DNA from: Paragemmobacter amnigenus
GTDB lineage: Bacteria; Pseudomonadota; Alphaproteobacteria; Rhodobacterales; Rhodobacteraceae
NCBI RefSeq assembly: GCF_009908265.2
Contig: NZ_JAAATX020000013.1
Span: 1 to 64,000, forward strand
Direction of reading: 5' to 3'
DNA: 64,000 bases
Part shown: piece by piece, positions 31,383-56,564 of the stretch
Layout of the letters: each line of letters begins with the position of its first letter
Numbering within the stretch: position 1 is the stretch's first letter
Notes under the pieces: model-generated
Seen by the model: the letters and a program-made list of their open reading frames with translations, nothing else
Database searches by the model: none
What the model was told of the DNA's origin: nothing
Made by a program: the position numbers and the translations under genes

Positions 31383-32033
31383 ATGCCGATCACCCCGCGC
31401 CAGACCGACCCCAACGCCGCCGCGCATGAACGCCTGTACCGGACGCTGCGCCAGCAGGTGATGCATGGCGAGCTGCCGCCCGGTCAGGCGATGACGTTGC
31501 GGGGGCTGGGCAAGCAGTTCGGCGTGTCCATGACCCCCGCGCGCGAGGCGGTGCGGCGGCTTGTGGCGGAGGGGGCGCTGACGCTGTCCTCGTCGGGGCG
31601 GATCTCGACGCCGGAACTATCGCCCGAGCGGATCGAGGAGTTGGCGGCGATCCGGGCGCTGCTGGAGCCCGAGATGGCAGCAAGGGCGCTGCCGCGGGCG
31701 CATTTCGCGCTGATCGAACGGTTGGCGGCGATCAATGCGCTGAACGCGGAGGCGGTGGTGAAGCAGGATGCGGTGGCCTATGTGCGGACCAATCTTGAAT
31801 TCCACCGCACGTTGTACCTGCGCGCGCAGGCGCCCGCGATGCTGGCCATCTGCGAAACCGTTTGGCTGCAACTGGGGCCCACCATGCGGGCGCTTTACTC
31901 CAAGCTGCGCCGGAAAGAGCCGCCGCAGCACCACCGGATGATCCTTGCCGCGCTGAAGGCGGGGGACGAGCCGGGGCTGCGGCTGGCGGTGCGAACGGAT
32001 GTGACGCAGGGGCTGCGGCATCTGGCGGGATGA
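31383..32033 (+). CDS. GntR family transcriptional regulator (FCD type)
   Basis: 216 residues. Winged helix-turn-helix at about 14-75 (LYRTLRQQVMHGELPPGQAM, MTPAREAVRRLVAEGAL) and a C-terminal all-helical FCD ligand domain (about 85-210) with metal-ligand-like positions in the NLEFHRTLY motif and a later HHRMILAAL. FCD regulators usually respond to small organic acids. It is followed one base later by an MFS transporter gene, so it probably controls that transporter in the same transcript. Ligand unknown. Confidence 0.92.
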   Translation: MPITPRQTDPNAAAHERLYRTLRQQVMHGELPPGQAMTLRGLGKQFGVSMTPAREAVRRLVAEGALTLSSSGRISTPELSPERIEELAAIRALLEPEMAARALPRAHFALIERLAAINALNAEAVVKQDAVAYVRTNLEFHRTLYLRAQAPAMLAICETVWLQLGPTMRALYSKLRRKEPPQHHRMILAALKAGDEPGLRLAVRTDVTQGLRHLAG

Positions 32034-33349: not shown

Positions 33350-34738
33350 TCAGGCGTGGATCGCGCCGTCGCCACAGGCGAGCGCCGCCTCGCGCACCGC
33401 TTCGGAATATGTCGGGTGGGCGTGGCAGGTGAGGGCCAGATCCTGCGCCGAGGCGCCGAATTCCATCGCGACGCAGACTTCGTGGATCAGGTCGCCCGCG
33501 GCGGGGCCGATGATATGGGCGCCGAGGATGCGGTCGGTCGCCTTGTCGGCCAGCAGTTTCACGAAGCCTTCGCCCTGGAACACCGCCTTGGCGCGGCCAT
33601 TGCCCATGAAGGAGAACTTGCCGACCTTGTAGGCGCGGCCCTCTTCCTTGAGCTGTTCCTCGGTCTTGCCGACGCTTGCCACTTCGGGCGTGGTGTAGAT
33701 GACGCCGGGGATCACGCCGTAATTCACATGGCCCGCCTTGCCGGCAAGGATTTCGGCCAGCGCCATGCCCTCATCCTCGGCCTTGTGGGCGAGCATGGGG
33801 CCGGTGATCGCGTCGCCGATGGCGTATAGGCCCTTGATATTCGTGGCGAAATGGGCGTCGGTCTTGACCTGTCCGCGCGGGAGCATCTCAACCCCCAGCG
33901 ACTCGAGGCCGAGGCCCGCGGTGAAGGGGCGGCGGCCCGTGGCGACCAGCACGGTGTCGGCGTCGAGCGTGGCCTCGGAGTCGTCCTTGCGGAGTTTGTA
34001 GCGGACCTTGGCGCCCTTCTTCGACACATCGACACCCTGCACGGCGGCGCCGAGGATGAACTTGAGCCCCTGTTTTTGCAGGATGCGCTGGAAGGATTTG
34101 GCGACTTCGGCATCCATGCCGGGGGTGATGGCGTCGAGGTATTCGACCACGGTGACTTCGGCGCCGAGGCGGGCGTAGACGCTGCCCATTTCAAGGCCGA
34201 TCACGCCTGCGCCGATAACGACCAGTTTGGCAGGGATCTTTTCCAGGGTCAGCGCGCCGGTGGAGGTGACGACGGTCTTTTCGTCCACCGTCACGCCGTT
34301 CAGGGGCGAGGATTCGGAACCCGTTGCAATCACGATGTTTTTCGCGCTGTGCACCTCGTCGCCCACCTTCACTTGACCGGCGGCGGGGATGGAACCCCAG
34401 CCCTTGAGCCATGTGACCTTGTTCTTCTTGAACAGGAATTCGATGCCCTTGGTGTTCTGGCCGATCACGTCGTCCTTGTAGCCGAGCATACGCGCCCAAT
34501 CGACGGTGGGCTTGGCGCCCATCAGGCCCATTTTTTCAAAGTTCTCATGCACTTCGTGCAGGTGGTGGGTGGCATTCAAGAGCGCCTTGGACGGGATGCA
34601 GCCCACGTTCAGGCAGGTACCGCCAAGGGTGTCGCGCCCTTCGACGACCGCGGTCTTCAGGCCCAGTTGCGCGCAGCGGATGGCGCAGACATAGCCGCCG
34701 GGGCCGCCGCCGATGATGATGACGTCGAATTCAGCCAT
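33350..34738 (-). CDS. lpd: Dihydrolipoyl dehydrogenase (E3)
   Basis: 462 residues. FAD motif [14 protein letters not shown] near 7-20; redox disulfide [13 protein letters not shown] with Cys42 and Cys47; NAD motif [12 protein letters not shown] near 178-189; second FAD motif YAIGDAI near 309; catalytic dyad HAHPTYSE near 440-447 with His in HPTYSE. It reoxidises lipoyl groups of the 2-oxoglutarate dehydrogenase complex whose E1 and E2 genes lie just upstream. The 83-bp gap before it holds a 12-bp-period TGTGC array. It is the last gene of the suc-lpd set. Confidence 0.97.
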
Positions 34739-35302: not shown

Positions 35303-36511
35303 TCAGAGATCCATCAACAGACGGCGCGGGTCTTCCAGCGCTTCCTTGACGCGGACGAGGAAGGTCACCGCGCCTTTGCCGTCGACGATGCGGTGGTCGT
35401 AGGAGAGCGCCAGATACATCATCGGGCGGATGACGATCTGGCCGTTCACCACCACGGGGCGGTCCTGGATCTTGTGCATCCCGAGGATGCCCGACTGCGG
35501 CGGGTTCAGGATGGGCGAGGACATGAGCGAGCCGTAGACGCCGCCGTTCGAGATGGTGAAGGAGCCGCCCTGCATTTCGGCCATCGACAGTTTCCCGTCG
35601 CGGGCGCGGATGCCGAGTTCGGCGATTTTCTTTTCGATCGCGGCAAAGCCCATCTGGTCGGCATCGCGCACCACGGGAACGACGAGGCCAGAGGGCGTGC
35701 CCACGGCCACGCCCATGTGGACGTAGTTCTTGTAGACGACATCGGTGCCGTCGATTTCGGCGTTGACCTCGGGCACCTCTTTCAGGGCGTGGCAGCAGGC
35801 CTTCACGAAGAAGGACATGAAGCCCATCTTGACGCCGTGCTTCTTTTCGAAGGCGTCCTTGTAGGTGTTGCGGAGTTCCATGATACCGGACATGTCGACC
35901 TCGTTATAGGTCGTCAGCATGGCGGCGGTGTTCTGCGCGTCCTTCAGGCGGCGGGCGATGGTCTGGCGCAGGCGGGTCATCTTGACCCGTTCCTCGCGCG
36001 CGGCGTCATCGGCGGGCACGGGAGCGCGGGGGATGGCGGCGGGGGCGGGCGCGGGGGCCACGGCGGCGGCGGCGGCACCGGCAGCACCGGCCACGGCGCG
36101 GGCCACGTCTTCCTTCATCACGCGGCCGTCGCGGCCGGTGGCCTGCACCTGATCGCGGGTGAGGCCCGCCTCGGCCAGTGCCTTTTTCGCGGCGGGGGCG
36201 TCTTCGACATCCTTCGCGGCGGGGGGGGCAGCGGAGGGCGCGGCCTCGGCCTTCGGGGCCGGAGCGGCGGCGGCGCCGCCTTCGGTCATGATGGCAAGGC
36301 GGGCATTGGCGGCCACGGTCGCGCCTTCGGGGGCGATGATTTCGGTCAGCACGCCGGAAACGGGGGCGGGCACCTCGACCGACACCTTGTCGGTTTCGAG
36401 TTCACAGAGCATCTCGTCCTGCTTCACGAAATCGCCCGGTTTCTTGAACCAGGTCGAAACGGTGGCTTCGGAGACGCTTTCGCCAAGGGCGGGCACCATA
36501 ACATCGGTCAT
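35303..36511 (-). CDS. sucB: 2-oxoglutarate dehydrogenase E2, dihydrolipoyl succinyltransferase
   Basis: 402 residues. Lipoyl domain 1-78 with the modified lysine in [11 protein letters not shown] (Lys42); E1/E3-binding domain about 108-145 ([30 protein letters not shown]) after an Ala/Pro linker; catalytic domain about 170-402 with DHRIVDG, catalytic His373 and Asp377. Transfers succinyl from E1 to CoA. The start at [12 protein letters not shown] follows GAGGA; the longer frame to 36799 is not used. 80 bp separate it from sucA upstream. Confidence 0.97.
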
Positions 36512-36591
36512 CTTCGGTTCCTCCGCGCCGCTTGATGGGCGCCTATCGTTGGGGTCGGGCCCGCGGCGGGGTGGCCGCGGGCGGGATGGGA

Positions 36592-39561
36592 TCAGGCGGC
36601 GGGACCGCCGAGGGCTTCGTTCACCAGTGCCTCCTGTTCGGCCTTGTGGCGCGAGGCGAGGCCGGTGGCGGGCGAGGCCGAGGCGGCGCGGCCGGCATAG
36701 GCGGCGCGTTTCGACTTGGCGCCGATGCGGCCCAGCACCCATTCGAGGTTGGGTTCGACGAAGGTCCAGCCGCCCTGGTTCTTGGGTTCTTCCTGGCACC
36801 AGACGATGTCGGCGTTCTTGAAGCGTTCAAGCTCCTTGACCATCGACATGGCGGGGAAGGGGTAGAACTGTTCCAGACGCAGCAGGTAGACGTCGTCCAG
36901 CCCCCGCTTGTCGCGTTCCGCGAGCAGGTCGTAATAGACCTTGCCCGAGCAGATGACGACGCGCTTGATCTTGGCGTCGGGTTTCAGGGTCAGGTCGGAA
37001 TGGCCCTTTTGCGCGTCGTCCCAGAGGACGCGGTGGAAGGTGGAGCCGGTGGTGAAATCCTCGGCATCCGACACGCACATCGGGTGACGCAGGAGCGATT
37101 TCGGCGTCATCAGGACCAGCGGCTTGCGGAAGCTGCGGTGGATCTGGCGGCGCAGGATGTGGAAGTAGTTGGCGGGGGTGGAGCAGTTCGCCACAATCCA
37201 GTTGTCTTCCGCCGAAAGCTGCAGGAAGCGTTCCAGACGGGCGGAGGAGTGTTCCGGACCCTGCCCTTCGAAGCCGTGGGGCAGCAGCATGACGAGGCCC
37301 GACATCCGCAGCCACTTGCGTTCGCCCGAGTTGATGAACTGGTCGAACATGATCTGCGCGCCGTTGGCGAAGTCGCCGAACTGCGCCTCCCACATCACGA
37401 GCGCATTGGGTTCGGCCAGCGAGTAGCCGTATTCGAAGCCAAGGACGGCGTATTCCGAGAGCATCGAGTCGATGACCTCATACCGCGCCTGTCCGGGGCG
37501 GATGTGGTTCAGGGGGTAGTGGCGTTCCTCGGTCGTCTGGTCGATGAAGGCCGAGTGGCGCTGCGAGAAGGTGCCGCGGGTGCAGTCCTGACCGGCCAGA
37601 CGGACGGGGAAACCTTCGGTGGCAAGCGAGCCGAAGGCCAGCGCCTCGGCCGTGGCCCAGTCAAAGCCCTTGCCGGTTTCGAACATCTTGGCCTTGGCGT
37701 CCAGTTGGCGCGCGACGGTCTTGTGGATGTCGAAGCCCTCGGGGACGCGGGTGAGGGCGGCGCCCACTTCCTTCATCGTTTCCGGTTTGATCGCTGTCTG
37801 GCCGGGCTGGTATTCCTCTTTCTCGCGGTCCAGCCCCGACCAGCGGCCATCCAGCCAGTCTGCCTTGTTCGGCTTGAAATTCTTGCCGATATCGAACTCT
37901 TCGTTGAGTTTCGACTGGAAGGCGGCCTTCATGTCCTCGATCTCGCCCTCGGGGATGAGGCCGTCTTTCACGAGGCGTTCGGTGTAGATCTGCAGCGTGG
38001 TCTTGTGCTTTTTGATCCGGTTGTACATGGCCGGATTGGTGAACATCGGCTCGTCGCCTTCGTTATGGCCGAAGCGGCGATAGCAGAAGATGTCGAGCAC
38101 GACGTCCTTGTGGAACTTCTGGCGGTATTCGGTCGCCACGCGGGCGGCGTGGACCACCGCTTCGGGGTCGTCGCCGTTGACGTGGAAGATCGGCGCCTCG
38201 ACCATCAGGGCGATGTCGGTCGGATAGGGCGAGGAGCGCGAGAAGTGCGGCGCGGTGGTGAAGCCGATCTGGTTGTTCACCACGATGTGGATGGTGCCGC
38301 CCGTGCGGTGGCCGCGCAGGCCCGACAGGCCGAAACATTCGGCCACGACGCCCTGACCGGCAAAGGCCGCGTCGCCGTGCAGCAGGATCGGCAGGACCGA
38401 GGCGCGGTCGGTCTGGTCGCCCAGCTGGTCCTGTTTGGCGCGGACCTTGCCGAGGACGACGGGGTTCACTGCCTCGAGGTGCGAGGGGTTGGCGGTCAGC
38501 GACAGGTGGACGGTGTTGCCGTCGAAGGTCCGGTCGGAGGAGGCGCCGAGGTGGTATTTCACGTCGCCGGAGCCATCCACATCCTCGGGCTTGTAAGATC
38601 CCCCTTGGAATTCGTGGAAGATGGCGCGGTAGGGTTTGGCCATGACGTTGGCCAGAACCGACAGGCGGCCGCGGTGGGGCATGCCGATGACGATTTCCTT
38701 CACACCCAGCGCACCGCCGCGCTTGATGATCTGTTCCATCGCGGGGATCAGCGCCTCGCCGCCGTCAAGGCCGAAGCGTTTGGTGCCCATGTATTTGACA
38801 TGGAGGAACTTTTCGAAACCCTCGGCTTCGACCAGCTTGTTCAGGATGGCGCGGCGCCCTTCGCGGGTGAAGGCGATTTCCTTGCCGTAGCCTTCGATCC
38901 GTTCCTTGAGCCATGCGGCCTGTTCGGGGTCGGAGATGTGCATGTATTGCAGCGCGAAGGTGCCGCAATAGGTGCGGCGCACGATCTCGATGATCTGGCG
39001 CATGGAGGCCATTTCGAGGCCCAGCACCTTGTCAATGAAGATCGGGCGGTCCATGTCGGCCTCGGTGAAGCCGTAGGAGGCGGGGTCAAGCTCGGGGTGG
39101 AGCTTGTCGTCGCGCATGCCCAGCGGGTCGAGGTCGGCCACCAGATGGCCGCGGATGCGGTAGGCGCGGATGATCATCAGCGCGCGGATGGAGTCGAGCA
39201 CGGCGCGCTGCACCTGCGCGTCGGTCAGCGAGACGCCCTTTTCGGCGGCCTTTTCCACGATCTTCTGCGCGGCGGCGCGGCCTTCCTTGGCGGGGGCGGC
39301 GGGCCATTCGCCGGTCATGGCGGCGGTCAGGTCATCGGCGGGGGCGGGCGGCCAGTCGGCGCGCGCCCAGGACGGCCCCTGCGCCTGACGCTTGGCGTCA
39401 AGTTCGCTGTCGCCGAGGGCGCGGAAGAATTCGGCCCATGCGGCATCGACCGCGTTCGGGTCAGCCGCATAGCGGGCCTGAAGCTGGTCGATATATTCGG
39501 CGTTGTGGCCTTGCAGGAAGCTCGAGGCGTGGAACTGGTCGTTGGGCGTATGCTCGGTCAT
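36592..39561 (-). CDS. sucA: 2-oxoglutarate dehydrogenase E1
   Basis: 989 residues. N-terminal [26 protein letters not shown] region that contacts E2; thiamine diphosphate motif [14 protein letters not shown] through NNQIGF around residues 393-425; YHLGASSDR and [15 protein letters not shown]-like [14 protein letters not shown] near 284-297. C-terminal transketolase-like part with [29 protein letters not shown] (segments near 712-740). Decarboxylates 2-oxoglutarate. Start at 39561 chosen because GGGAGGAATCGAAGAG precedes it and the family N-terminus begins there. Confidence 0.97.
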
Positions 39562-39624
39562 CTCTTCGATTCCTCCCCCTTCACGGGACAAGCGGACCGG
39601 CGTCCCGGCCCGCTTCTGGCAACT

Positions 39625-39793: not shown

Positions 39794-40678
39794 TTACTTG
39801 CCCAGAGCCTTCATGACCGCCTCGCCCAGCGTGGCGGGGCTGTCGGCCACGACGATGCCTGCAGAGCGCATCGCCTCGATCTTGCTTTCCGCGTCACCCT
39901 TGCCGCCCGCGACGATGGCACCCGCGTGGCCCATGCGGCGGCCGGGGGGGGCGGTGCGGCCCGCGATGAAACCGGCGCAGGGCTTGGCGCGGCCGCGCTT
40001 TGCCTCGTCCTTCAGGAATTGTGCCGCCTCTTCCTCGGCCGAACCGCCGATTTCGCCGATCATGATGATCGACTGCGTCTCGGGGTCGGCAAGGAACATC
40101 TCGAGCACGTCGATATGTTCCGTCCCCTTGATCGGATCGCCGCCGATTCCGACCGCCGAGGACTGGCCAAGGCCGAGGTCGGAGGTCTGCTTGACCGCCT
40201 CATAGGTCAGCGTGCCCGAGCGCGAGACGACGCCGACCGAGCCGCGCTTGTGGATGTGGCCGGGCATGATGCCGATCTTGCAGGCGTCGGGGGTGATAAC
40301 GCCGGGGCAGTTCGGCCCGATCAGGCGGGATTTCGACCCCGACAGGGCGCGCTTGACCTTCATCATGTCCAGCACCGGGATGCCTTCGGTGATGCAGACG
40401 ATCAGCTCCATCTCGGCATCGATGGCCTCGAGGATCGAGTCGGCCGCGAAGGGCGGGGGGACGTAGATCACGGTCGCGTTGGCCTGCGTGGTTGCCTTCG
40501 CTTCATGAACGGAATCGAATACCGGAAGGTTAAGGTGGGTCGTGCCGCCTTTGCCCGGTGTCACGCCGCCGACCATCTTCGTGCCATAGGCGATGGCCTG
40601 CTCGGAATGGAAGGTGCCCTGGCTGCCGGTGAAGCCCTGGCAGATCACGCGGGTGTTTTCGTTGACGAGTACGGCCAT
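39794..40678 (-). CDS. sucD: Succinyl-CoA synthetase alpha subunit
   Basis: 294 residues. CoA-binding Rossmann part 1-125 ([19 protein letters not shown] near 12-30, GGVTPGKGG near 38-46, [13 protein letters not shown] near 90), ligase part with CPGVITP and the phosphorylated histidine in [11 protein letters not shown] (His251). Works with SucC to convert succinyl-CoA and phosphate to succinate with substrate-level ATP/GTP formation. It lies after a small secreted-protein gene that separates it from sucC. Confidence 0.97.
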
Positions 40679-41317: not shown

Positions 41318-42511
41318 TCAGCCCTTGACCGCCTTGACGATCTTCTGCGCCGCGTCCGACAGGTTGTCGGCGGCGATCACGTTCAGGCCGGATTTGTTGA
41401 TGATTTCCTTGCCCAGCTCGACATTGGTCCCTTCCAGACGGACGACCAGCGGCACCTTGAGGCCGACTTCCTTGACCGCCGCGATCACGCCTTCTGCGAT
41501 GATGTCGCAGCGCATGATGCCGCCGAAGATGTTGACGAGGATGCCTTTGACGTTGGGGTCCGAGGTGATGATTTTGAAGGCTTCGGTCACCTTCTCTTTC
41601 GTCGCGCCGCCGCCCACGTCAAGGAAGTTGGCCGGTTCCGCGCCGTAAAGCTTGATGATGTCCATCGTGGCCATCGCAAGGCCCGCGCCGTTGACCATGC
41701 AGCCGATCTCGCCATCCAGCGCGATGTAGTTCAGATCGAACTTCGAGGCGGCGAGTTCCTTGGGGTCTTCCTCCGTCTCGTCGCGCAGGGCGGCGATGTC
41801 GGCGTGGCGGTAGAGGGCGTTGGAGTCGAAGCCCATCTTCGCGTCGAGGCATTTCAGGTTGCCGTTGGTCATGACGACCAGCGGGTTGATCTCCAGCATC
41901 TCCATGTCTTTCTCGATGAAGAGCTTGTAGAGGTTCTTCACCAGCGCGACGCATTGCTTGACCTGCTGGCCTTCGAGTTTCAGCGCGAAGGCGACACGGC
42001 GGCCGTGGAAATCGGACAGGCCGGTGGCGGGGTCGACCGAGAAGGAGACGATCTTTTCGGGGGTGTTGTGGGCCACATCCTCGATCGACATGCCGCCTTC
42101 GGTCGATGCGACGAAGGAGATGCGCGAGGTCTGGCGGTCGATCAGGATGGCGAGGTAGAGCTCGCGTTCGATGTCGGAGCCGTCCTCGATGTAGATGCGG
42201 TTGACCTGCTTGCCCGCCGGGCCGGTCTGGATGGTGACGAGGGTGCGGCCCAGCATCTGGCGGGCGAACTGGTCGGCCTCTTCCACGGAACGGGCAAGGC
42301 GGACGCCGCCCTTTTCACCGGCCTCGGGTTCCTTGAAGCTGCCCTTGCCGCGGCCGCCCGCGTGGATCTGGGCCTTGACCACCCAGAGCGGGCCGTCGAG
42401 TTCGCCTGCGGCGGTCTTGGCCTCTTCGGCCTTCATCACGACGCGACCGTCCGAGACCGGAACGCCGTAGGACCGCAAAAGCGCCTTGGCCTGATATTCG
42501 TGGATGTTCAT
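41318..42511 (-). CDS. sucC: Succinyl-CoA synthetase beta subunit
   Basis: 397 residues. N-terminal ATP-grasp domain begins [31 protein letters not shown] near residues 46-56; EINPLVV near 194-200 for Mg/[21 protein letters not shown] near 256-273; C-terminal ligase part with GGATKEKV and [10 protein letters not shown]. First gene of the suc-lpd set. Its 178-bp upstream region carries the paired GTGATCAC sites and a GGTATGC direct repeat. Start at 42511 by family N-terminus; the upstream 14 codons are not conserved. Confidence 0.97.
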
Positions 42512-42619: not shown

Positions 42620-42648
42620 GTGATCACGGGTCGAAAAAGTGTGATCAC
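42620..42648. promoter_or_regulatory. Paired GTGATCAC sites upstream of sucC
   Basis: Perfect 8-bp palindromes at 42620-42627 and 42641-42648, starts 21 bp apart (two helix turns). An identical pair with identical spacing lies upstream of sdhC at 52267-52295. No regulator is assigned. Confidence 0.75.
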
Positions 42649-50371: not shown

Positions 50372-51403
50372 ATGAAGACCAATCCGGGGCGGTTTTTCGA
50401 GGATTACCGTTTGGGCGAGACGATCGTCCATGCGGTGCCGCGCACGGTGTCGGGGGGCGAGCGGGCGCTGTACCATGCGCTCTATCCCGCGCGGGGGGCG
50501 CTTTATTCCTCGGACGAGTTCGCGCGGGGATGCGGGCTGCCTGCGGCGCCGGTGGATGATCTGGTGGCGTTCCATGTGGTCTTTGGCAAGACGGTGCCGG
50601 ATATCAGCCTGAACGCGGTGGCGAACCTTGGCTATGCCGAGGGGCGCTGGCTGGGGCAGGTCTATCCGGGCGATACGCTGCGGTCGGAATCCACCGTGAT
50701 CGGGTTGAAGGAGAATTCCAACGGCAAGTCGGGTGTCGTCTATGTCCGCACGCGGGGCATCAACCAGCGCGACGAGGTGGTGCTGGAATATGTGCGCTGG
50801 GTGATGGTGAGGAAGAACCGGCTGGACGCGCCCGCGCCTGCGGCGGTGACGCCATCGCTGGCCCCGGTCGTGGTGCCCGAGGCGCTGGTGGTGCCCAAGC
50901 GGCTGGACTTTTCGCGCTATGATTTCGCGCTGGCGGGCGAGCGGCATCGCTTTGCGGATTACACGGTGGGCGAGCGGATCGACCATGTGGACGGGGTGAC
51001 GGTCGAGGAGGCCGACCACCTGCTGGCGACGCGGCTGTGGCAGAACACCAGCAAGGTGCATTTCGACGTGACCCAGCGCGAGGACGGGCGGCGGCTGATC
51101 TATGGCGGCCATGTGATTTCGCTGGCGCGGGCGCTGTCCTTCAACGGGTTGGCCAATGCGCAGATGATCGTGGCGCTGAATGCAGGGGCCCACGCGAACC
51201 CGTGTTTCGCGGGGGATACGGTCAGGGCATGGTCCGAGGTGCTGGACAAGGCCGAGACGGGCGCGCCCGGCGTGGGGGCGCTGCGGCTGCGGCTGGTGGC
51301 GGTGAAGGACGGGGCGGCGCCCTTCGCGCTGAAGGGGGCGGAGGGGAAGTATCTGCCCGAGGTGTTGCTGGATCTGGATTACTGGGCGCTGGTGCCGGTG
51401 TGA
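50372..51403 (+). CDS. mch: Mesaconyl-CoA hydratase (MaoC family)
   Basis: 343 residues with two hot-dog (MaoC) domains, about 1-160 and 175-340. N-terminus NPGRFFEDYRLGETIVHAVPR; VSGGERALYHALYPARGALYSS near 26-47; AVANLGYAEGRWLGQVYPGD near 75-94; second-domain TRLWQNTSKVHFDVTQREDG near 214-233. This is the form found in Rhodobacter that hydrates mesaconyl-CoA to beta-methylmalyl-CoA in the ethylmalonyl-CoA pathway. Length and N-terminus fit; mcl2 and ecm in the window support it. Confidence 0.9.
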   Translation: MKTNPGRFFEDYRLGETIVHAVPRTVSGGERALYHALYPARGALYSSDEFARGCGLPAAPVDDLVAFHVVFGKTVPDISLNAVANLGYAEGRWLGQVYPGDTLRSESTVIGLKENSNGKSGVVYVRTRGINQRDEVVLEYVRWVMVRKNRLDAPAPAAVTPSLAPVVVPEALVVPKRLDFSRYDFALAGERHRFADYTVGERIDHVDGVTVEEADHLLATRLWQNTSKVHFDVTQREDGRRLIYGGHVISLARALSFNGLANAQMIVALNAGAHANPCFAGDTVRAWSEVLDKAETGAPGVGALRLRLVAVKDGAAPFALKGAEGKYLPEVLLDLDYWALVPV

Positions 51404-51451
51404 TCACCAAATCCCGCTTGAACGGCGGCGCACTTCGGGCATGATGCCCGC

Positions 51452-52266: not shown

Positions 52267-52295
52267 GTGATCACAAATTTTCTGCGCGTGATCAC
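52267..52295. promoter_or_regulatory. Paired GTGATCAC sites upstream of sdhC
   Basis: Perfect palindromes at 52267-52274 and 52288-52295, starts 21 bp apart; 160 bp before the sdhC start. Same as the sucC pair, including the flank CCGTGATCACAAATT. A downstream TGCATTTTTTCGCC tract may carry the promoter. Confidence 0.75.
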
Positions 52296-52456
52296 ATCGT
52301 GCATTTTTTCGCCGGTTTAGCGCGAACATTGCGTGTCCTGCGGCGTTCTGCTGCGTGACTCGTCTGGAAAAACCGCTATTCAGAACCGAAGAACAAGCCG
52401 AAGCGCGCGCCCGCCGGTCCCGCCGGAAGGGCAAGCCAGCGACGAAGGGAACCGAG

Positions 52457-52840
52457 ATGGCTGATGTGAAGCGGGTCGAGCGGCCCCTTTCCCCGCATTT
52501 GCAGATTTATCGCCCGCAGTTGACGTCGGTCACGTCGATCCTGACGCGGATCACGGGCAACGGGCTGATCGTGGGGACGATCCTTGCGGTCTGGTGGCTG
52601 CTGTCGGCGGCGACGTCGCCGGAGTATTTCGCCTTTGCCGATGCGGTGGTGACAAGCTGGTTCGGCGATCTGGTGTTCACCCTGTCTGCATGGGCGCTGT
52701 GGTATCACTACCTCGCCGGGATCCGGCACCTGATCTATGACGCGGGGCGCGGGCTGGACATCCCCACCGCCGAAAAGCTGGGCTGGGCCTGCATCATCGG
52801 GTCGGTCGTGCTGACCGTCCTGACTGTCGTGATCGTGTAA
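52457..52840 (+). CDS. sdhC: Succinate dehydrogenase cytochrome b556 subunit
   Basis: 127 residues, three helices. N-terminal RPLSPHLQIYRPQLTSVTSILTRITG (residues 8-32) is the SdhC signature including the quinone-site Ser/Arg; heme ligand His in WYHYLAGIRHLIYD near 85-98. Membrane anchor of complex II. Start at 52457 chosen by the family N-terminus and the AAGGGA before it; the upstream frame (34 codons) is not coding. First gene of the sdh operon. Confidence 0.95.
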   Translation: MADVKRVERPLSPHLQIYRPQLTSVTSILTRITGNGLIVGTILAVWWLLSAATSPEYFAFADAVVTSWFGDLVFTLSAWALWYHYLAGIRHLIYDAGRGLDIPTAEKLGWACIIGSVVLTVLTVVIV

Positions 52841-52853
52841 GGGGGGGCGGGAC

Positions 52854-53225
52854 ATGCGTTATCTGACCGACCGCAAGCGCGCCGTGGGCAAGGGCGCAGG
52901 GCATTCGGGGACCGAGCATCACTGGTACATGCAGGTGAGCGCGGTGGCGCTGGCCTTCCTGCTGCCGGTGTGGGTCTTCATCTTCGGCAGCGCGCTGGGG
53001 CAGGGGCACGAGGCGGTTGTGGCAACCTTCGCGCGGCCCTTTCCGGCGATCGTGACGGGGCTGGTGCTGTTTGTCTCGATGCGCCACTTCGCCAAGGGCG
53101 CGCAGATGATGATCGAGGACTATGCGCGGGGGCACATGAAGAAGGCCCTCGTGATCGCGGCGATTTCGCTTTCCTACGTGGTGATGGCGACGGGGTTCTA
53201 TGCCCTTGTCCGCATCGCGCTTTGA
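52854..53225 (+). CDS. sdhD: Succinate dehydrogenase membrane anchor subunit
   Basis: 123 residues, three helices. Begins [24 protein letters not shown], where HHWYMQ is typical; heme-ligand region [20 protein letters not shown] near 80-95 (the HFxxGxxxxIEDY motif). Sits 13 bp after sdhC and 14 bp before sdhA. Together with SdhC it binds heme b and quinone in the inner membrane. Confidence 0.95.
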
Positions 53226-53239
53226 GATTCGGGGCTGAA

Positions 53240-55042
53240 ATGACGGCTTATCCTTATGAAGTGCACGACTATGACGTGGTCGTGGTGGGTGCGGGTGGCG
53301 CGGGTCTGCGCGCGACGCTGGGCATGGCGGAGCAGGGGCTGCGCACGGCCTGCGTGACGAAGGTCTTCCCGACGCGGTCGCATACCGTGGCGGCGCAGGG
53401 CGGGATTGCGGCCAGCCTTGGCAACATGGGGCCGGATTCGTGGCAGTGGCACATGTACGACACCGTGAAGGGGTCGGACTGGCTGGGCGATACGGATGCG
53501 ATGGAATATCTGGCGCGCGAGGCCCCCAAGGCGGTGTACGAGCTGGAGCATTACGGGGTGCCGTTTTCCCGCACCGAAGAGGGCAAGATCTACCAGCGCC
53601 CCTTTGGCGGCCATACGACCGAGTTCGGGGAAGGCCCGCCGGTCCAGCGCACCTGTGCCGCCGCCGACCGGACGGGGCACGCGATCCTGCACACGCTGTA
53701 CGGTCAGTCGCTGAAGAACAATGCGGAGTTCTTCATCGAATATTTCGCGCTGGACCTGATCATCACGGACGGGGCCTGCACGGGTGTCGTGGCGTGGAAG
53801 CTGGATGACGGCACGATCCATGTGTTCAACGCCAAGATGGTGGTGCTGGCGACGGGCGGCTATGGGCGGGCCTATTTCAGCGCGACTTCGGCGCATACCT
53901 GCACGGGTGACGGTGGCGGAATGGTGGCGCGGGCCGGTCTGCCGTTGCAGGACATGGAATTCGTGCAGTTCCATCCGACGGGAATTTACGGGTCAGGCTG
54001 TCTGATCACCGAAGGCGCGCGGGGCGAGGGCGGGTATCTGACCAACGCCAATGGCGAGCGGTTCATGGAGCGCTATGCGCCGCACTACAAGGACTTGGCG
54101 CCGCGCGACTATGTCAGCCGCTGCATGACGCTGGAAATCCGCGAGGGGCGCGGCGTGGGCGCGAATGGCGACCATATCCACCTGCACCTGAACCACCTGC
54201 CGAAAGAGACGCTGGAGCTGCGGCTGCCCGGCATTTCGGAATCGGCGCGCATCTTTGCGGGCGTGGACCTGACGAAGGAGCCGATTCCGGTTCTGCCGAC
54301 GGTGCATTACAACATGGGCGGGATTCCCACGAATTACTGGGGCGAGGTGCTGAACCCGACGCCCGAGAACCCCGATGCGGTCTTCCCCGGTCTGATGGCC
54401 GTGGGCGAGGCGGGCTGTGCGTCGGTGCATGGGGCGAACCGTCTGGGGTCGAACAGCCTGATCGACCTTGTGGTCTTTGGTCGCGCGGCAGCGATCCGCG
54501 CGGGACAGATTGTCGACCCGAAGGCCCCTACGCGGCCTGTGAACCGTGCGGAAGTGGACAAGGCCCTGACGCGGTTCGATGCGATGCGGCACGCCAATGG
54601 CGGCACGCCCACGGCGGAGCTGCGGCTGGAGATGCAGAAGACCATGCAGTCGGATGCCGCCGTGTTCCGCGCCGAGGCGACGCTGGCCGAGGGCGAGCGG
54701 AAGATGACCGCGATCGCGGGCAAGATGGGCGATCTGAAGGTCACGGACCGGTCTCTGGTCTGGAACAGCGACCTGATGGAGACGCTGGAACTGGCGAACC
54801 TGATGCCCAATGCGCTGGCCACGATCTATGGTGCCCATGCGCGGACCGAAAGCCGCGGCGCGCACGCGCACGAGGATTACCCGAACCGCGACGATGCCAA
54901 CTGGCGCAAGCATTCGCTGGCATGGGTCGAGGGCAACCGCGTGACGCTGGGCTATCGCGGCGTGCATGTCGATCCGCTGACATCCGAGGCGGAAGGCGGC
55001 ATCAGCCTGAAGAAGATCGCGCCCGCAGAGCGGAAGTTCTGA
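53240..55042 (+). CDS. sdhA: Succinate dehydrogenase flavoprotein subunit
   Basis: 600 residues. FAD motif [16 protein letters not shown] near 13-28; covalent FAD site [10 protein letters not shown] with His48; active-site RxxxAPHYKD and HxPTG motifs FHPTGIYG near 243-250; catalytic Arg near 289 region ([11 protein letters not shown] at 254-264). C-terminal helical part ends [13 protein letters not shown]. Oxidises succinate to fumarate. Two small lipoprotein genes separate it from sdhB. Confidence 0.97.
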
Positions 55043-55167
55043 TGGAGCGGGCGGCGGGGCATTCGGCGGCAAGCTGCCGTTCCGGCGCGCGGATCGCGCG
55101 GCGGGACTGCGGGCGGCTGACGCCCCGTGGCAAGGTGGCGGCGGTTTCACAGACAGGAGTTGCCGCC

Positions 55168-55491
55168 ATGACGTGCCGTGCCCTTTTCGCCCTGATTGTC
55201 CTGCCCTTTGCCCTTGCCGCCTGTTCGCCCGAGGATGTGGCGGACAAGATCGGCCGCCGCACGGCGGAAACCGTGGTGCGGCCCATCGTGGATGACCGCC
55301 TGACCGGCGCGCAGGCCGATGCGGCGACGCGCTGTGTGGTGCAGAACGCGACGGCGGCCGAGGTGCAGAGCCTTGCGCGGGATGTGGGCGTGATCGCCGG
55401 AACCTCGACCGAAGCGACGGTCTGGGCCATCGTGGCGCGGAGCGAGACGCAATCCTGCCTTGCTGCCGCTGGCGTGGCGCTGGGGGCGTGA
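55168..55491 (+). CDS. Putative lipoprotein in the sdh operon
   Basis: 107 residues; a signal peptide MTCRALFALIVLPFALA is followed by the lipobox LAAC (Cys near 20). The mature part is short, with two more Cys (TRCVVQ, QSCLA) and an Ala-rich helix, no known domain. GGAGT lies before the ATG. It sits 125 bp after sdhA; its stop overlaps the next gene by one base. It is an outer-membrane or periplasmic lipoprotein by prediction; link with succinate dehydrogenase is only positional. Confidence 0.78.
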   Translation: MTCRALFALIVLPFALAACSPEDVADKIGRRTAETVVRPIVDDRLTGAQADAATRCVVQNATAAEVQSLARDVGVIAGTSTEATVWAIVARSETQSCLAAAGVALGA

Positions 55492-55784
55492 TGCGGGGGC
55501 TGTGGTTCCTTGCGCTGCTGGGGCTGGTGGCCTGCGGGCCGATCCCGGTGGAGCGCGCCGAGCAGCAATGCCTTGGCCGGGCGCAACTGGCGGCGAAACC
55601 GCGCGGCATGGTGAGTGCGGGGGTCAATTCGGATGGCGACACGCTGGCCGGTCTGAAGCTGGAAGTGTCGTCCGACTATATCATGGGACGCGATCCGTCG
55701 GCGGTGTTCGACCTTTGCGTTCAACAGAAATCCGGGCAGCCGCCGACGCGGCCGCTCTATTCATTCCCGGAATGGAAGGGATAA
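55491..55784 (+). CDS. Small putative lipoprotein in the sdh operon
   Basis: 97 residues, lipobox LVAC with Cys near residue 15 after a short signal (MRGLWFLALLGLVAC). Mature portion has PIPVERAEQQCLGRAQLA and FDLCVQQKSG with two further Cys. No family recognised. It starts at the ATG that overlaps the preceding stop (TGATG) and ends 3 bp before sdhB, so all are one transcript. Function unknown. Confidence 0.78.
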   Translation: MRGLWFLALLGLVACGPIPVERAEQQCLGRAQLAAKPRGMVSAGVNSDGDTLAGLKLEVSSDYIMGRDPSAVFDLCVQQKSGQPPTRPLYSFPEWKG

Positions 55785-55787
55785 ACG

Positions 55788-56564
55788 ATGGTCCAGTTCA
55801 CGCTGCCGAAAAACAGCAAGGTCCGCACCGGCAAGACATGGCCGAAGCCTACGGGCAAGAATGTGCGGAAGTTCCAGATCTATCGCTGGAACCCCGATGA
55901 TGGCGAGAATCCGCGGGTCGACACCTATTTCGTCGATATGGATACCTGCGGGCCCATGGTTCTGGACGCGCTGATCAAGATCAAGAACGAGATCGACCCG
56001 ACGCTGACTTTCCGGCGGTCCTGCCGCGAGGGGATCTGCGGGTCCTGCGCGATGAACATCGACGGGATCAACACGCTGGCCTGCATCTATGGCTTGGACG
56101 AGGTGAAGGGGGATGTGAAGATCTATCCCCTGCCGCATATGCCGGTGATCAAGGACCTGATCCCCGACCTCACGCATTTCTACGCCCAGCATGCGAGCAT
56201 CATGCCGTGGCTGGAGACCAAGACGAACCGCCCCGCCAAGGAATGGCGGCAGTCGATCGAGGACCGCAAGAAGCTGGACGGTCTTTATGAATGCGTGATG
56301 TGCGCGTCCTGTTCGACCTCGTGCCCGTCCTACTGGTGGAACAGCGACAAGTATCTGGGGCCTGCCGCGCTGCTGCATGCCTATCGCTGGATCATCGACT
56401 CGCGCGACGAGGCGACGCCGGAGCGGCTGGATGCGCTGGAGGATCCCTTCAAGCTCTATCGTTGCCACACGATCATGAATTGCGCCAAGACCTGCCCCAA
56501 GGGGCTGAACCCCGCGAAGGCGATTGCCGAGATCAAGAAGATGATGGTGGAGCGGGTGGTCTGA
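55788..56564 (+). CDS. sdhB: Succinate dehydrogenase iron-sulfur subunit
   Basis: 258 residues. [2Fe-2S] ligands Cys79, Cys84, Cys87 and Cys99 ([17 protein letters not shown]); [4Fe-4S] and [3Fe-4S] ligands in [16 protein letters not shown] (about 172-185) and [17 protein letters not shown] (about 229-243). Carries electrons from SdhA to quinone. A strong terminator follows after 24 bases, so this is the last sdh operon gene. Confidence 0.97.

Follow-up and report, generated by a model that had tools for sequence, protein, structure and literature searches.

Paired palindromes upstream of sucC and sdhC in Paragemmobacter amnigenus: probable operators of the GntR-family activator AkgR

The window analyzed in this study, a stretch of 64,000 nucleotides of the Paragemmobacter amnigenus genome, carries the 8-bp palindrome GTGATCAC in two copies in front of sucC and again in two copies in front of sdhC, which raises the question of what protein recognizes these sites and what their arrangement means. 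According to the original prediction, two perfect palindromes start 21 bp apart upstream of sucC, and the same pair with the same 21-bp spacing is located upstream of sdhC (52267-52295). Both statements were confirmed by the coordinates, each pair showing 21 bp from start to start and a spacer of 13 bp. The features relevant to the present analysis are as follows.

31383..32033, + strand: candidate regulator of 216 aa, GntR HTH plus FCD (Pfam GntR and FCD both over the cut-off)
33350..34738, - strand: lpd, dihydrolipoyl dehydrogenase, downstream of sucC (named by eye from the sequence)
35303..36799, - strand: sucB reading frame, with the true start inside the frame, downstream of sucC (named by eye from the sequence)
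36592..39591, - strand: sucA, 2-oxoglutarate dehydrogenase E1, downstream of sucC on the same strand
39794..40678, - strand: sucD, downstream of sucC on the same strand (named by eye from sequence and place)
41318..42511, - strand: sucC, succinyl-CoA ligase beta subunit, the first gene after its pair
42620..42648, - strand: putative operator pair before sucC, GTGATCAC-N13-GTGATCAC, 108 bp upstream of the sucC ATG (42511)
51400..51407, no strand: lone GTGATCAC across the mch stop codon, probably outside the system
52267..52295, + strand: putative operator pair before sdhC, GTGATCAC-N13-GTGATCAC, 161 bp upstream of the sdhC ATG (52457)
52457..52840, + strand: sdhC, the first gene after the second pair
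52854..56564, + strand: sdhD, sdhA and sdhB (sequence-based naming by eye), following sdhC on the same strand; additional frames intervene between sdhA and sdhB

A total of five copies of GTGATCAC were found in the window (42620-42627, 42641-42648, 51400-51407, 52267-52274 and 52288-52295), compared with a mean of 0.77 and a maximum of 4 after 100 shuffles of the same window. For the whole genome (4.14 Mb in 37 contigs) the number of single copies, 83, is near chance (about 63 expected at 4^-8). Pairs of GTGATCAC with a gap of 10-16 bp were detected in the whole genome only at the sucC and sdhC sites, and the reversed control pattern gave no pair at all. The copy at 51400, which the original prediction did not list, is not matched at the equivalent position in any of 13 other sdhC loci examined, and was set aside as probably a chance occurrence.

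The original prediction proposed a search for the paired sites in related genomes, and this search came out in its favor: at least one pair (gap 10-16) is present in 363 of 395 genomes of the family, most of them showing two pairs as judged by eye, and no row of the same 395-genome scan matched the reversed pattern. Among 387 genomes sampled across the class and scanned at gaps of 12-13, 8 matched, of which 6 belong to the family (own genome included); outside those 6 the pair was found in only 2 of 381 genomes (G520 and G563). We then have a set of 77 opened pair loci, consisting of the own two, 70 from the family scan (30 plus 40) and 5 from the class scan, and as many as 74 of these stand before sucC (39 loci) or sdhC (35 loci), with 3 elsewhere. 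Among these 74 pairs, 67 have a gap of 13 and the other 7 a gap of 12; the sucC pairs stand a median of 109 bp from the start codon, the sdhC pairs a median of 135 bp. The sequences flanking the palindromes tend to TTTGTGATCACA / TGTGATCACAAA, most strongly before sucC, and the spacers are richer in A+T (60%) than the window as a whole (33%). The feature is genuine, and its conservation within the family is strong. A scan for TANNNT and TTG at a constant distance from the pair revealed no clear promoter element, TTG reaching 6 of the 39 sucC loci against a shuffled maximum of 5.

As to the identity of the regulator, the excerpted text of Price et al. 2019 (PMC6365646) gives GTGATCAC among the binding sites of AkgR, an activator of Rhodobacter sphaeroides, and the excerpted text of Imam et al. 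2015 (PMC4344238) names sucCD, sdh and sucAB-lpd as predicted targets of the GntR protein RSP_0981. Because the published motif and the published predicted targets agree, as far as these excerpts go, we tie the pairs to AkgR. Of the features of the AkgR regulon, a GntR-family gene, the operator GTGATCAC, and sites before sucCD and sdh are present here. In this comparison RSP_0981 is taken by us to be AkgR. For sucAB-lpd as an AkgR target, no pair was detected before sucA in the whole-genome pair scan (gap 10-16), and these genes trail sucCD on the same strand; sucA, sucB and lpd may have the sucC promoter in common. The original prediction of a shared TCA-cycle regulator fits the conserved pairs before both sucC and sdhC, as does its suggestion of two dimers on one face of the helix, but its description of that regulator as so far unnamed does not hold, since in the published excerpts the motif is reported for AkgR and RSP_0981 is predicted on the same operons. 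The regulator in question is very probably AkgR, already named, and the feature very probably belongs to the AkgR regulon, a known kind.

The gene at 31383-32033, located 1.3 kb from lpd, is a likely orthologue of the AkgR gene. The motif, the GntR family and the targets sucCD and sdh all agree between the R. sphaeroides system, as excerpted, and the window; the window protein is likened to AkgR by these three features. The best match by sequence among solved structures is McbR (PDB 4p9f, E 2.3e-21), an HTH-type regulator different from the window protein, to which the likeness is a sequence match only. Of 80 related loci (taken from 196 relatives), 42 exceed 20 kb in length; 29 of these include lpd, and sdhB occurs in two of them, both from Gemmobacter.

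The pair tracks the window GntR gene across genomes. A homologue at 59% identity or higher was found in all 32 pair-bearing family genomes chosen for this comparison, G024 having it divided between two contig ends. Of another 49 family genomes, each with one pair, 48 have it too. The exception, G018 (91% complete), carries a pair before sucC and a best match of only 37% identity. In G520 and G563, both outside the family, the best match to the window GntR protein is 31-37% identical. For the family genomes without the exact pair, the homologue was detected near full length in only 5 of 32, leaving out an 88-residue piece at 59% identity in the pairless genome G100. Three of these five (G035, G258 and G367) carry pairs with 1-2 mismatches and a gap of 13, 95-110 bp before sucC, and a 1-2-mismatch pair is also present before sdhC in G035 and G258. 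No recognizable pair was found before sdhC in G367. The fourth, G178, has a homologue of 70% identity and no pair before sdhC, the start of its sucC being off the contig; the fifth, G139, has the homologue, and neither sucC nor sdhC was found there. Among the genomes lacking the homologue, the best pair in 25 sucC and 24 sdhC upstream regions carries at least 5 mismatches in all but one region each, the two exceptions, both with 3 mismatches, being G016 before sucC (gap 12) and G092 before sdhC (gap 11). The distribution of 80/1 versus 5/27 gives a Fisher p value of 6e-20, uncorrected for kinship. A 45-row SucC tree, many of whose branches are weak, shows the pair label to be clustered, largely in one clade with about three losses inside; one of the groups that lost the pair includes G178, which still has the homologue, and G100, which has a piece. 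Since the pair is largely confined to one clade, the Fisher value overstates the tracking, and the independent evidence is far smaller.

Taking these observations together, we favor, with a probability of roughly 0.8, the reading that the pairs are operators of AkgR, that the gene at 31383-32033 probably encodes AkgR, and that AkgR dimers probably bind cooperatively on one face of the DNA for activation of the TCA-cycle genes. In the proposed scheme each 8-bp palindrome would bind one AkgR dimer, and the 21-bp step, equal to two helix turns, would place two dimers on the same face of DNA, probably with cooperativity. From their position upstream of each promoter, that of sucC and that of sdhC, the dimers would recruit RNA polymerase, and the stretch of the cycle from 2-oxoglutarate to fumarate would be raised together. 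A sensed signal is also inferred for this scheme, on the same footing as the binding and the cooperativity. That the site is a two-dimer, one-face site is suggested by the near-constant step, by the arrays of three palindromes and by the reuse of the pair before fumC (both described below). We propose more tentatively, as a somewhat doubtful extension, that an obligate multi-dimer operator with two and sometimes three dimers of a GntR/FCD activator at an almost fixed 20-21-bp step on one face of the DNA is the rule for the TCA-cycle operons of the family. The nearly fixed 21-bp step, with sometimes three sites, may be new: no description of the 21-bp pair was found in the literature searched, the main AkgR paper being outside that search. 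The near-fixed step and the triple arrays offer a direct way to test whether a GntR/FCD activator binds cooperatively, and a single regulator gene is indicated for a TCA-cycle switch throughout the family.

The most serious competing explanation accepts the binding of AkgR and takes the palindromes as independent sites, the 21-bp step being merely inherited. The pair does follow the phylogeny, but two unrelated genes are preceded by pairs with this step, the triples retain it, and the added pairs before fumC hold it nearly (gap 13 in G037 and 14 in G233), so that we regard this explanation as rather unlikely. It is also conceivable that the window GntR protein is only a fellow traveller and that the binding protein is another GntR/FCD protein, such as the paralogue L012 or L003, which is widespread, given that the genome contains 13 FCD matches and that L003-like proteins (65-77% identical) were found in six small pair-bearing genomes examined. 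When the GntR/FCD proteins were compared across genomes at E<=1e-15, however, 11 of 32 pair-bearing genomes gave a single match, the close homologue of the window GntR protein, with no L012-like protein seen; since these 11 genomes are without a second match, L012 is unlikely to be the general binder. The homologue of the window GntR protein is present in all seven small pair-bearing genomes (G217, G348, G272, G063, G145, G123 and G275), whereas no L003 orthologue was found among the FCD proteins opened for G145 (4 of 5) and G123 (3 of 6). Binding by one of these other GntR/FCD proteins is therefore improbable.

Two further explanations concern the palindrome itself. The pair could form a hairpin in the leader RNA by pairing of the palindromes with each other, since two self-complementary 8-mers amount to an inverted repeat that encloses a loop of 13 bases. 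The predominance of the 13-bp gap (67 of the 74 loci) is explained by the helix phase but not by a loop, the three-copy arrays hold the 21-bp step, and the flanks tending to TTTGTGATCACA / TGTGATCACAAA resemble a protein site, all of which makes the hairpin very improbable. The CRP/FNR operator has the form TGTGA-N6-TCACA, and the half-sites GTGA/TCAC of the window palindromes resemble those of CRP, as was remarked in the original prediction together with the lack of a 6-bp spacer. The remark was correct on both counts: the half-sites of GTGATCAC abut, and the form of the CRP/FNR operator is not present. The excerpted report assigns the motif to AkgR instead (PMC6365646), and the chance that a CRP/FNR-type protein is involved is slighter still than that of the hairpin; CRP-type binding was rejected, GTGATCAC having no internal spacer.

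The AkgR reading may be followed beyond the two standard positions. Three palindromes at 21 plus 21 bp stand before sucC in four loci (L153, L159, L161 and L164) among the 80 related loci, in each case 108-109 bp from the start. Triples were also found in G122, G170 and G252 among 21 family genomes with at least three pairs (picked by eye), that of G252 standing before sucC. The spacers of G122 are identical to those of L159, and for this reason the two may be of one species. An additional pair is located before fumC in two genomes, G037 (gap 13) and G233 (gap 14), in which the fumC genes were recognized by the Pfam lyase model in both and by the fumarase C-terminal model in G037. In G263 a pair precedes a thiolase gene by about 200 bp (L313:1501-1731), perhaps a link to polyhydroxybutyrate metabolism. 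Forty loci were also opened, chosen mostly for extra pairs, and 16 of these have sucC or sdhC beside the pair while 24 have neither. Many pairs among the 24 fall within reading frames, folC accounting for four as judged by eye, and a gap of 13 is seen in some; the 24 were taken as chance except for the two fumC pairs, the thiolase pair of L313, the GntR pair of L259, and the pair of L326, which is possibly intergenic. The pattern GTGATCAC-N12/13-GTGATCAC represents a strict, searchable signature for likely AkgR targets in this family.

Outside the family, the pair of G563 adjoins other genes, and that of G520 (gap 13) stands directly before a GntR/FCD gene (L259:992-1903), between this gene and a TonB-receptor-like gene (named by eye); possibly a related regulator controls itself there. 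The excerpted text of PMC6365646 also describes the GntR-like PS417_07240 of Pseudomonas simiae, reported there as 32% identical to AkgR, where GTGATCAC stands before a cluster opening with the GntR gene. The Pseudomonas simiae case differs in that a single palindrome is described in that excerpt and the cluster is for deoxyribonate oxidation, not for TCA-cycle genes.

Some other sites were observed near these promoters. The LacI-family protein CceR (RSP_1663) of R. sphaeroides, which differs from AkgR in motif and family, is also predicted to control sdh in the excerpted text of PMC4344238, and the sequence GGTTTAGCGCGAACA at 52314-52328 in the sdhC promoter matches the CceR motif given there. 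CceR-like sites are not enriched in the relatives, being found in 3 of 35 sdhC loci (shuffles, mean 1.3 and maximum 6) and in 2 of 39 sucC loci. The hexamer CGTGAC, present at 52354-52359 in the sdhC leader, is conserved: it recurs in 27 of 35 sdhC loci, where it precedes the start codon by 57-107 bp, while the shuffled control gave a mean of 1.3 and a maximum of 5. It may serve as a -35 element or as a site of another kind. The candidate regulator has a paralogue, L012 (C8 of the own genome, near 128.5 kb), whose gene is preceded by TTGATCAA, perhaps a sister operator.
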